64,000 nt of DNA, from positions 17,621-81,620 of the forward strand of contig JAOZUO010000008.1 in NCBI GenBank assembly GCA_029938605.1, given 5' to 3'. Of this stretch, positions 27,637-59,782 are shown one piece after another (within the stretch, counting starts at the first letter, position 1; each line of letters begins with the position of its first letter). Under the pieces are notes generated by a model that was not told the origin of the DNA, did not search any database, and was given only the letters and a program-made list of their open reading frames with translations. This DNA is from Deltaproteobacteria bacterium. GTDB taxonomy: Bacteria; Myxococcota_A; Polyangia; HGW-17; JAJRWW01. The translations under genes were made by a program, and so were the position numbers.

Positions 27637-27800
27637 CTAAGGGCCCGATCGAATATTACTTGATCACTCAAGCCGCCGATGCATCGCTGGCTCGCTTCGT
27701 TACTTCTCGTTGCATATCAATAAGTATGCGCCTCGTCGTGCCTCGCGAGCCGGGCGCCTCGACGCCCTGCGCTGGACAACTAATATCCGAGCGGGTCCTA
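27637..27800 (-). repeat. Palindromic element 1 of the ~165-bp family
   Basis: Terminal arms TAAGGGCCCGATCGAATATTA and the complement of its 3' end pair at 17 of 21 positions plus a G-T. On the minus strand it carries the conserved inner blocks GTCGAGGCGCC and ATCGGCGGCTTGAGTGATC, an inner stem GGCTCGC/GCGAGCC, and a central hairpin GCATAT..AGTATGC. Its right end is shared with element 2. Confidence 0.8.
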
Positions 27801-27962
27801 AGGGTCCGCGAATAGACAACTCGATCGATGATGGCCGTCGAGGCGCCCGCTGGGCAAGGAGCGAGGAGGGCGTATAGCGGTGCCTATGCAACCGACGAGC
27901 GACGCCGCCCAGCGGGATGGATCGGCGGCTAGGGCGACTGAGTTGTCCATTCGCGGACCCTA
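27798..27962 (+). repeat. Palindromic element 2 of the ~165-bp family
   Basis: The terminal arms (27798-27821 and 27939-27962) pair at 22 of 24 positions with a sequence (GTCCGCGAATAGACAACTC) unlike the arms of element 1. Conserved blocks GTCGAGGCGCCC and GGGATGGATCGGCGGC are present, with an inner stem CCCGCTGGGC/GCCCAGCGGG. It is placed back to back with element 1, opposite orientation, sharing a TAA. Nothing else was seen in 27963-28091. Confidence 0.8.
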
Positions 27963-45067: not shown

Positions 45068-45225
45068 GGACCCGGTCAGCAATAAGTTGGTCAGATCAGG
45101 TCGTCGAGGCGCCCGGCTCGCGAGGCGCCAGAAGGGCGCATATCGGGAATATGAAACCGCCTGGCAACGAAGCGAGCCGGGATGGATCGGCGACGTGAGC
45201 GATCAAGTTATTGCTGACCGGGTCC
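45068..45225 (+). repeat. Palindromic element 3 of the ~165-bp family
   Basis: Arms 45068-45089 and 45204-45225 (GGACCCGGTCAGCAATAA and complement) pair at 21 of 22 bases. Inner blocks GTCGAGGCGCCC, GGGATGGATCGGCG and TGAGCGATC are shared with the other copies; the inner stem is CCGGCTCGC/GCGAGCCGG and the central hairpin CATAT..ATATG. It ends 23 bp before the GTG of the metalloprotease gene, and the rest of 44848-45248 holds only the palindrome described above. Confidence 0.8.
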
Positions 45226-47216: not shown

Positions 47217-47318
47217 GATCAGCCGGAGGTTGAGCTCAGCCGAGCTGCCGGAGGTTGAGCTTAGCCGAGCTGCCGGAGGTTGAGCTCAGCCGAGCTGGCG
47301 GAAGTGATCCTTGTACTC
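47217..47318. repeat. 25-bp tandem repeats and remnant of the sigma-factor gene end
   Basis: About three units of GAGCTCAGCCGAGCTGCCGG plus AGGTT lie directly after the metalloprotease stop. The last 38 bases (47281-47318) equal 51541-51578 with one mismatch and are the antisense of the last codons of the ECF sigma gene (EYKDHLRQLG-stop). The repeat unit itself derives from that stop region. Confidence 0.8.
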
Positions 47319-51028: not shown

Positions 51029-51442
51029 CAATTCTCCATTCCCTATGACATTGCCGGTGGGCCCAACGGCATATACCTTCGGGCGAGCGCTTTGAACTTC
51101 ACGGCCAGCCACCGCACCTGGGTCACAGACAACTCCGACGCGATCTACAGCTTTGCGCGGGCCCGACTGGTACTTCCCAAGGGCTTCGGGTCAGCGAGCT
51201 CACAACCGGACATCATGGGGATGGGAGCGCTGGAGGCGTCCGGGGCCCGACGGATCACCTGGGGCCTCCCCTCGGGGCCGCTGCCGCCCTGGGTGCGCGT
51301 GGGAGTGACCCTCGATCGCGGCAACCGCGGCGTGGATCACCTCACCACCAGCCTGTGGTTGGGCCCACGCCCGGCGCCACGCAACGCGGGGCGGCTCATC
51401 CACCTGGGCGGACTGCTCACGTTGCGGTTGGCCCGGGGTTGA
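51029..51442 (+). pseudogene. Decayed copy of the metalloprotease lipoprotein gene
   Basis: It matches 45903-46031 and then 46914-47216 of the intact gene with about 95 percent identity by eye. An 888-bp internal segment including the HExxH site is missing; the join is at TTCGCG/TTTGCG and keeps the frame (YSFARARL). Two further 6-base losses are also in frame. There is no start region or signal peptide. The end is directly followed by the tandem repeats and the complete sigma gene. Nothing was seen in 50755-51028. Confidence 0.85.
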
Positions 51443-51545
51443 GCTCAGCCGGAGGTTGAGCTCAGCCGAGCTGCCCGAGGTTGAGCTCAGCCGAGCTGCC
51501 GGAAGTTGAGCTCAGCCGGAGGTTGAGCTCAGCCGGAGGTTGAGC
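51443..51545. repeat. Tandem repeats GAGCTCAGCCG(AGCTGCC)GGAGGTT
   Basis: Six or so units, alternating between 25 bases and a 17-base form lacking AGCTGCCG, lie between the decayed metalloprotease copy and the stop codon of the sigma gene. They are homologous to the repeats at 47217-47294. Expansion by slippage from the sigma stop region is likely. Confidence 0.85.
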
Positions 51546-52313
51546 TCAGCCGAGCTGGCGGAGGTGATCCTTGTACTCGGCGAGATCGCTTCGAAGCTTC
51601 TCCAGGGCGTAGCGCATTCGGCTCTTGGCGGTGTTCTCGGGGATGTCCACGATCTTGGCGATCTCCTTGAAGGGCAGGCCGAGATACTCACGCATGAGGA
51701 ACACCTCCCGCTGATCCTCGGCGAGGTTGTCCACCGCCACCTTGATCTGCTCACCGAGCTGGCGGCCCATGGCACGCCGATCCGTGGCCGCGTCGGGGTT
51801 GGGAATGGACTCTCCCAGGGTCCGACGATCCTCTCCCCCAGCGCGCGTGGGATGGTCTAATGAGGCCGTGCGGCGGTGCTTCATGCGCCGGGAGTGGTCG
51901 ATGCAGATGTTGCGGGCGATGGTGTAGAGCCAGGTGGTGAACTTGGCCTCCCGCTTGTAACTGCCGGCCCGCCGAATGATCCGAATGAACACGTCCTGCA
52001 CCAGGTCTTCGGCCGTGGAGCGGTTTCCCACATAGCGAAAGATGAAGTTGAGCACCGGGCGCTGGTGACGACGCAATAGCTCCTCGAAGGCGCTTGTGTC
52101 GCCCTGGCCATACGCCACCATCAGTTGCTCGTTCGTTTGCTCTTTTTCCACGGAGTCCGTGTCCACCTCGGCACCCTCTGCCGACGAGGCGGATACTATC
52201 GTCAAAACCGGGCGCTTGGCAACGGGCAGACCGCTCCCTTTTGTCTTGAACCTCTGGCTCACAATTGAATGAGACTCCGCCAGACGCAAATTGGTTTCCA
52301 CAGTTCGTTCCAT
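51546..52313 (-). CDS. ECF RNA polymerase sigma factor
   Basis: The 255-residue form starts at the ATG 52313. A 64-residue N-terminal extension of unknown role precedes region 2 (LMVAYGQGDTSAFEELLRRHQRPVLNFIFRYVGNRSTAEDLVQDVFIRI and AKFTTWLYTIARNICIDHSRR). Region 4 is near 190-245 (LAEDQREVFLMREYLGLPFKEIAKIVDIPENTAKSRMRYALEKLR). Both regions are complete, so it should direct RNA polymerase to an alternative promoter set. No anti-sigma gene is adjacent, though the N-terminal extension could be the control point. A palindrome lies in its leader. Confidence 0.93.
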   Translation of the reverse strand: MERTVETNLRLAESHSIVSQRFKTKGSGLPVAKRPVLTIVSASSAEGAEVDTDSVEKEQTNEQLMVAYGQGDTSAFEELLRRHQRPVLNFIFRYVGNRSTAEDLVQDVFIRIIRRAGSYKREAKFTTWLYTIARNICIDHSRRMKHRRTASLDHPTRAGGEDRRTLGESIPNPDAATDRRAMGRQLGEQIKVAVDNLAEDQREVFLMREYLGLPFKEIAKIVDIPENTAKSRMRYALEKLRSDLAEYKDHLRQLG

Positions 52314-57040: not shown

Positions 57041-57049
57041 ACGCGCCTC

Positions 57050-57081
57050 AGGGTCGTAGGACCTTAGGGTCGTAGGACCTT
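57050..57081. repeat. Two tandem 16-bp repeats between genes
   Basis: AGGGTCGTAGGACCTT occurs twice in tandem, ending at the stop codon of the coiled-coil gene. Each unit contains an internal GGTC/GACC inverted repeat and could weakly pair in RNA; no T-run follows, so I do not call a terminator. Confidence 0.7.
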
Positions 57082-58027
57082 ATTTCCGGTCGGGCCCTTT
57101 GCGATCGTCCCCTTCCAACTCTTCGTGGGAGACCCTTCGCACTTCCAGGGTCGGACCGTCGTGGGGTCCAACGACGGTCTTAAAGTTGTTGCCCTGCCCA
57201 AATGTGCCGGCGGGTGGCAGTGGTGGCGGTGGCGGCGGAGGGAGGCTGCCCGAGGAAGATCTCGCCTTGGGCTCACCGTCCACCGGAAACGGGGGCGGTG
57301 AATTGGGATCGGTCAGCGGCCCATCGTAGTTGGCGTGCTGCTCCTTGAGCTGCTGCCCCAGGAACTCGATACGCTGGTTGCGTCGCTTGAGCTCGGCGCG
57401 CAGCTTCTCCGCAGTGGCCTCCAGGGCAGCGTAGCGGTGGATCTGCTCGTTGCCCTCGGCCCGCCTCTCCTTGATGTCCTGCTCACTCTCCGAAACGGTG
57501 AACCGAAGCTCAGCGTTCTCGTCGACGAGCTCGTCGATTCGCTGCATGAATTGAACGACGTTCTCCGGTGAGTGCAGGTTGACCTGCCGGGTCTCTTCAT
57601 GCCCACCCAGGTTGTCGGCGGGCTCGGCCTGGTCCACAGCCTCCTTGACGCTACGCGGGGCTGCGGCCGGAATCTCGAACTCGTCCTCAGAGACCTTCTG
57701 CAAATGCGGCACGCTGTCCCGCTCGAAGTAGGACTCGGGAGCCGGTAGCTCCGTTTGACCACCAAACCCCCCCCGTTCCGCCGAGAGGCTTTTGGCGGCC
57801 CGAAGACCCCTTTCGGCACTTTCCAGCCGGCTCTGGAGTATCTCCTCGCGGGACTGGCGGATCTTGCGCTCCTCCAGCAACTTGTTCAAAGCTGCCTGAA
57901 GCTTCTTCAGCTCCTCCACCTGTTTTAAGAGCCGGTCCGCAGACGCAGCGCGCGCGAACAAGATCCCACCCGCGACCAGCAGAAACGCCGAGAGGATACA
58001 CACCACCCAGGATAGAATCGGATCCAT
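57080..58027 (-). CDS. Membrane-anchored coiled-coil protein
   Basis: 315 residues from the ATG 58027. One N-terminal helix (MDPILSWVVCILSAFLLVAGGILFARA) is followed by two coiled-coil regions (about 30-75 and 170-235). A Pro-rich tail with PPPPPPPLPPAG comes at about 275. The membrane helix with long cytoplasmic coils recalls EzrA/FtsB- or polar-scaffold-like proteins, without sequence evidence for any. It starts three bases after the stop of the 190-residue gene, so both are in one operon with the transporter further downstream on the same strand. Confidence 0.78.
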   Translation of the reverse strand: MDPILSWVVCILSAFLLVAGGILFARAASADRLLKQVEELKKLQAALNKLLEERKIRQSREEILQSRLESAERGLRAAKSLSAERGGFGGQTELPAPESYFERDSVPHLQKVSEDEFEIPAAAPRSVKEAVDQAEPADNLGGHEETRQVNLHSPENVVQFMQRIDELVDENAELRFTVSESEQDIKERRAEGNEQIHRYAALEATAEKLRAELKRRNQRIEFLGQQLKEQHANYDGPLTDPNSPPPFPVDGEPKARSSSGSLPPPPPPPLPPAGTFGQGNNFKTVVGPHDGPTLEVRRVSHEELEGDDRKGPDRK

Positions 58028-59617: not shown

Positions 59618-59782
59618 TAAGGGCCCGACCAGGAATAACCAGATCGCTCAGGCCGCCGATCCATCCCCGCTGACTGCGTCCCTCGTCACTCGGAATCATA
59701 AAGATTTCCTCGCTCCTCGGTCCTTGCCAGCGGGGCGCCTCGACGACCTGAACTGACCAACTTATTCCTGGTCGGACCCTAA
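59618..59782 (-). repeat. Palindromic element 4 of the ~165-bp family
   Basis: Arms 59618-59638 and 59762-59782 (GGGCCCGACCAGGAATAA and complement) pair at 19 of 21 positions. Minus-strand blocks GTCGAGGCGCCCC, GGGGATGGATCGGCGGCC and TGAGCGATC agree with elements 2 and 3; the inner stem CCCCGCTG/CAGCGGGG is its own version. It sits in the 482-bp divergent space between genes at 59433 and 59916; nothing else was seen between 59783 and 59915. Confidence 0.8.

Follow-up and report, generated by a model that had tools for sequence, protein, structure and literature searches.

A mobile hairpin element of a deltaproteobacterium with covarying arms and a core that recurs across bacterial phyla

We describe a 158-bp hairpin element at positions 45068-45225 of a 64,000-nucleotide stretch of DNA from a Deltaproteobacteria bacterium (assembly GCA_029938605.1, contig JAOZUO010000008.1, positions 17,621 to 81,620), referred to below as the window. 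Three further copies of the element lie in the same window. A previous reading made from the letters of the window alone (the sequence-only reading) had noted that the stems of this repeat family differ between copies and nevertheless stay self-complementary, and had taken this as a mark either of selection for a fold (RNA or single-stranded DNA) or of intrastrand correction of the arms. The features concerned are given below; the score refers to R1, a covariance model that we built from 27 diverse copies.

45068-45225, + strand: complete hairpin element, 158 bp, flanked by ACA and TTA; R1 score 163.8 bits
45068-45085, + strand: left terminal inverted repeat (outer arm), GGACCCGGTCAGCAATAA
45208-45225, + strand: right terminal inverted repeat (outer arm), TTATTGCTGACCGGGTCC
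45112-45121, + strand: 5' side of the inner stem, CCCGGCTCGC; alignment columns 45-54, which pair with columns 107-117
45172-45180, + strand: 3' side of the inner stem, GCGAGCCGG, then the invariant GATG
45114-45179, + strand: apical core that recurs across phyla, with isolated base pairs between 2x2 internal loops and the terminal hairpin CATATCGGGAATATG
27641-27798, - strand: second copy, with TAA on either side
27802-27960, + strand: third copy, in head-to-head orientation to the second, with one TAA common to both (TAA-copy-TAA-copy-TAA)
59621-59779, - strand: fourth copy, with TAA on either side
57079-57100, - strand: possible lone element end AAAGGGCCCGACCGGAAATAAG, a weak match that adjoins a tandem array of CCTTAGGGTCGTAGGA (57046-57082)

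The borders of the element at 45068-45225 are exact to the base, with the two terminal repeats placed at 45068 and at 45225 as the sequence-only reading had them. The near-full pairing of the outer arms that it reported for the four window copies also holds (16, 19, 19 and 17-18 matches over the outer 20 positions), and the inner stems do change in step from copy to copy, i.e., CCGGCTCGC/GCGAGCCGG, CCCGCTGGGC/GCCCAGCGGG and CCCCGCTG/CAGCGGGG.

The family is abundant in its own genome, where BLAST yielded 43 matches, a search with an end pattern 80 and R1 112. The R1 matches correspond to at least 112 dispersed copies, four of them in the window; 58 complete copies were extracted and every one measures 156-159 bp. 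When relatives were searched with R1, matches were found in 17 of 39 genomes (a count that includes the own genome), with up to 66 copies in each of the others and nearly all of them full length; the amplification is species-specific at a fixed length. Many copies are eroded or reduced to lone ends. The lone ends of the own genome are about 25 nt long (loci L055-L057, L061, L067, L068 and L070) and several are joined directly to stop codons of genes; when we asked whether they belong to long elements that had captured a gene, no convincing mate turned up within 6 kb. One 468-bp derivative (L078:605-1072) has about 300 bp of other palindromic sequence in place of one half of the hairpin.

The copies carry terminal inverted repeats, and 3-bp direct repeats lie directly outside the GGnYCC...GGnYCC ends. 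The 3-bp flanks are identical in 40 of the 57-58 own-genome copies, compared to a mean of 15.9 and a maximum of 28 in 10000 shuffles. Among the flank pairs there are 18 of TAA/TAA, 17 of TTA/TTA and only 1 mixed pair of TAA/TTA. TAA and TTA are mutually reverse-complementary, and the rarity of mixed pairs therefore rules out that the flanks are merely the outer part of a longer inverted repeat; they are a target duplication within CTWAG. The head-to-head copies of the window with their common TAA are what one would expect from insertion into an existing duplication, and the left target copy of the element at 45068-45225 is no longer recognisable. The hairpin element is a mobile element, and it has the features of a miniature inverted-repeat transposable element (MITE), namely terminal inverted repeats, a target-site duplication, and many short dispersed copies without a transposase gene.

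Insertion sites are mostly intergenic and cluster at the 3' ends of genes, often 0-20 bp from the stop codon (flanking genes were called by a simple heuristic based on open reading frames and GC content at third codon positions, GC3). This clustering speaks for a structure that is useful to the host, such as a terminator, an mRNA-stability element or a chromosome-structuring element, which was spread by transposition and kept for its effect on neighbouring genes. We regard such a role as quite unlikely: where both neighbouring genes are co-oriented the orientation of the element is unbiased (12 vs 12), lone ends and eroded copies occur frequently, and high-GC genes contain few TAA/TTA targets, so that the position of the copies may simply follow the choice of target.

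The sequence-only reading had proposed that the covariation of the arms be tested against a phylogenetic null, and in this test the arms covary beyond the null. The null was obtained from 300 resimulations of the substitutions on the tree of the copies. Among 53 distinct copies, standard pairs account for 96.8% of the structural cells, compared to 74.4 ± 3.1% under the null (maximum 82.9%). The structure predicted by RNAalifold from 27 copies has 46 pairs, of which 27 show double changes (null 13.1 ± 2.4, maximum 19). Double substitutions on the same branch number 47, vs 7.8 ± 2.8 when the 3' columns are re-paired. When 11628 pairs were examined singly in a G-test against a null of this kind, two reached E<0.05, and both of them belong to the structure; the copies of a single genome contain few independent events, which makes this per-pair result weak. 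Since the element moves and has terminal inverted repeats and 3-bp target duplications, some of the covariation of the outermost arms comes from the requirement that transposon ends match.

The inner part of the element extends far beyond the own genome. Of 141 genomes in the phylum, 43 have matches to R2, a covariance model of the core alone; the arms around these cores have little or no sequence in common, yet they are complementary in most of the copies shown. A pattern for the core detects at least 115 loci in GTDB genomes, most of them inside long hairpins; the pattern scan may include chance hits, but the complementarity of the flanks is independent of the pattern. Among the matches listed, the core loci belong to Burkholderiales, Gammaproteobacteria, Acidobacteria, Verrucomicrobia, Planctomycetota, Nitrospinota, Elusimicrobia, Omnitrophota, Binatia, Aureimonas, Massilia, Thiobacillus and others. 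In an alignment of 32 core sequences from many genomes, pairing amounts to 95.7%, compared to 70.8% after shuffling and 21-43% after sliding. Plasmids and phages gave no match to the whole element and chance matches to its ends only, and viral contigs gave 7 core matches only. The ends of the elements fall into the classes GGGCCYG, CTAG-TGTCSTGTCC and GCAGCCCGTGGTGAAA. A broader interpretation would place all of these hairpins in one cross-phylum superfamily with an obligatory folded strand, in which the core is the functional head, recognised by some enzyme or host factor, and the ends were exchanged repeatedly to exploit different transposases; we offer it tentatively, as an idea less likely than not to be right.

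Two further observations concern the diversity of core-bearing hairpins. One class, found in Burkholderiales and others (L203, L206, L246, L252, L270 and L316), has its own conserved flanks AAACCGCAGTTGGACGCGCCCGAG ... ATCGGGYGCGTAGCG, has no CTAG ends and is often followed by a GGTGAG hairpin. We also examined two Binatia genomes, G171 (one complete chromosome, at least 31 core matches) and G172 (37 core matches). Elements of G171 (L351-L355, L358, L359, L363 and L364) lengthen by steps of 22-23 or 45 bp, which are REP-like units CCCCGGGTCAAGCCCGGGGTGA inserted at one site of the core.

Mismatches in the arms provide a way to distinguish selection for a fold from intrastrand correction. The latter would mean that template switching or gene conversion between the arms maintains a quasi-palindrome of no function, and the excess of same-branch double substitutions and the near-perfect outer arms are in line with it. 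Correction of the arms, or double-strand recognition alone, predicts equal numbers of G.U and A.C mismatches. We set the orientation of each element by its core and used an arm alignment score that treats G.U and A.C alike. On the strand defined in this way, 96 cross-phylum elements have 318 G.U(T) vs 105 A.C mismatches, and the phylum set has 142 vs 48. After removal of similar arms, 44 of 57 elements have more G.U and 7 have more A.C. The excess is also present in these 57 elements more than 18 nt from the core (96 vs 38, p about 6e-7); more than 40 nt from the core, where pairing is near perfect and counts are small, it is not significant (22 vs 15). On the tree of the own-genome copies, 44 events lead from a Watson-Crick pair to G.U and 16 to A.C. 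The excess therefore indicates that one single strand was selected to fold, and the 12 neighbouring genes in each sense indicate that the bias does not come from selection on mRNA at the insertion site. In addition, conserved unpaired positions persist across phyla, which correction would have erased. Of the two explanations in the sequence-only reading, selection for a fold is thus the one that stands, with G.U about 3 to 1 over A.C and unpaired positions kept, and intrastrand correction is very unlikely. These comparisons support the interpretation that the inner arms and the core are held by the fold of one single strand, either RNA or single-stranded DNA, and the last 20 bases are probably held by transposase recognition as well.

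The core itself differs between the strands. Its 2x2 loops are GA/GA in 23 and 25 of the 32 aligned sequences, and TC/TC on the opposite strand; the GA/GA arrangement forms sheared tandem G.A pairs, which the opposite strand cannot form. The covariance model score is 147 on the core strand vs 56 on the opposite strand. Together with the strand-specific tolerance of G.U, these two properties are consistent with a fold made by RNA, i.e., a transcribed element whose core binds a protein (an RNase, a chaperone or a transposase) and whose DNA ends are moved separately. Such an RNA could serve mobility or be a selfish small RNA, and this explanation is one branch of the interpretation that we prefer rather than fully exclusive of it. 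We consider it a reasonable but less than even prospect. Hairpins of single-stranded DNA likewise accept G.T more readily than A.C and also form tandem G.A pairs, there is no orientation bias to the neighbouring genes, and a search of Rfam 15 with gathering and permissive thresholds yielded chance hits only and no family match.

The strand-specific fold would also be expected if single-stranded DNA were used by a single-strand transposase (of the IS200/IS605 or RAYT/REPIN-like kind) or folded in lagging-strand synthesis. One truncated IS200-like transposase gene immediately follows the initial 25 nt of an element (L178:70-526, G000:C228), and there is a lagging-strand excess of 26 vs 11 in the main contig of G172 (C1, 4.09 Mb). 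On the G171 chromosome, however, the numbers are 19 vs 21, and both chromosomes together give p = 0.17. No match to the single-strand (Y1) transposases was found in 7 of 16 element-bearing genomes, no Y1 locus has element ends, and Y1 enzymes make no target duplications; we thus rejected RAYT/IS200 as the general mover and regard this origin of the fold as unlikely. The IS200-like gene at L178 is probably an insertion into a copy of the element.

We interpret the hairpin as a MITE-like non-autonomous transposable element of about 156-165 bp that consists of two modules and needs a folded single strand for its spread, and assign this interpretation a probability of about 0.6. It brings together the mobility signature, the covariation, the strand-specific constraint on folding and the cross-phylum core, which are observed, and a proposed transposase, a proposed strand and a proposed core-binding factor. 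The outer arms would act as terminal inverted repeats that a DDE transposase, provided in trans and most likely of the IS5/IS1182 kind, cuts and joins in double-stranded form; insertion into CTWAG or CTAG would produce duplications of 3 or 4 bp. For continued spread the entire element, and in particular the apical core and its tandem G.A loops, would have to fold as one defined single strand, which could be an RNA transcript or exposed single-stranded DNA. The folded core may be bound by a factor of the host or of transposition.

The proposal for the transposase comes from a comparison of ends. An IS5-family element of a Binatia chromosome has the ends GGGCCTGTTAACACTA and CTAG flanks, and both of its halves score above the NF033580 cut-off. 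An IS1182-family element in the Binatia genomes has the ends GAGTCTGCGCCGTAGG and sits in CTAG. The hairpin element L214 ends in GGGCCTGTTAACGCTTA, of which the first 12 bases are identical to the IS5-family end. Judging from such likenesses, IS5/IS1182-type transposases acting in trans are probably the mover. Several results weigh against the interpretation as a whole: 1) the 12-base match is between different organisms, and no ends matching an IS5-family element of the same genome were found in the genomes tested; 2) searches of the own genome (a draft), G171, G172 and two high-copy relatives revealed no autonomous element that has these ends; 3) PF01609 transposases of the own genome lack hairpin-element ends; 4) an IS5_3 transposase above the cut-off was found in 0 of 18 element-bearing genomes; 5) the sole longer element with these ends in the G171 chromosome is a hairpin copy split by IS110; and 6) in the CTAG-flanked relatives a duplication is indistinguishable from a palindromic end, and the non-CTAG variants of elements with CTAG-type ends are two direct and one inverted. 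Autonomous parents are often missing for bacterial MITEs, and the lack of a found parent bars naming the parent, not the MITE class.

Two candidates for an autonomous element were rejected, one of 1.4 kb in G171, which is the copy split by the IS110-family element, and one of 2.6 kb in G172, which consists of two separate hairpin copies. At L356:7240-8670, an element with an IS110-family (RNA-guided) transposase lies within the REP array of one hairpin element.

We searched the literature by core words and by topic and found no description of the hairpin family, and the accessible text of a MITE review (PMC10969869) names no cross-phylum family of this kind. As far as this text describes them, ERIC, Correia (CREE), RUP and Chunjie of Geobacter resemble the hairpin element in being short, non-autonomous and intergenic, in having terminal inverted repeats and target duplications, and in transcripts predicted to form long hairpins. 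They are known from single genera or small sets of related families, and each derives from one insertion sequence, whereas the hairpin element has one folded core across phyla, unrelated ends and strand-specific covariation. REP/REPIN sequences with their RAYT (Y1) transposase are also dispersed extragenic palindromes with a single-strand fold; the hairpin element differs from them in its frequent lack of a Y1 match, in its target duplications and in a length 4-5 times that of REP. With IS5 and IS1182 it shares CTAG or TNA-type targets, GGGCC(T/C)G ends and the end match of L214, but it has no transposase gene and no same-ended insertion sequence in the same genome among the genomes tested. 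The class 4 multicopy sites of Geobacter metallireducens (PMC2700814), with pyrimidine/purine pentamer repeats (CCYTC), may be related.

The window also contains two tandem arrays 4 kb apart (47222-47302 and 51433-51552) with the 25-bp unit GCCGGAGGTTGAGCTCAGCCGAGCT, the second of which includes 17-bp variants. These arrays are a separate repeat family unrelated to the hairpin.

The usual view of bacterial MITEs is that they are passive remnants left by a single insertion sequence, and we know of no described bacterial MITE in which a fold has such a function in the life of the mobile element. A core of about 66 nt that is kept together with its fold across phyla while the arms change, and that bears a single-strand signature, implies a function in the life of the element. 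The hairpins appear to form a widespread family that has gone undescribed and for whose spread the folded form is important. A covariance model made from the core could allow many copies to be annotated, and it becomes a testable question whether the folded strand is needed for movement and what binds the core.
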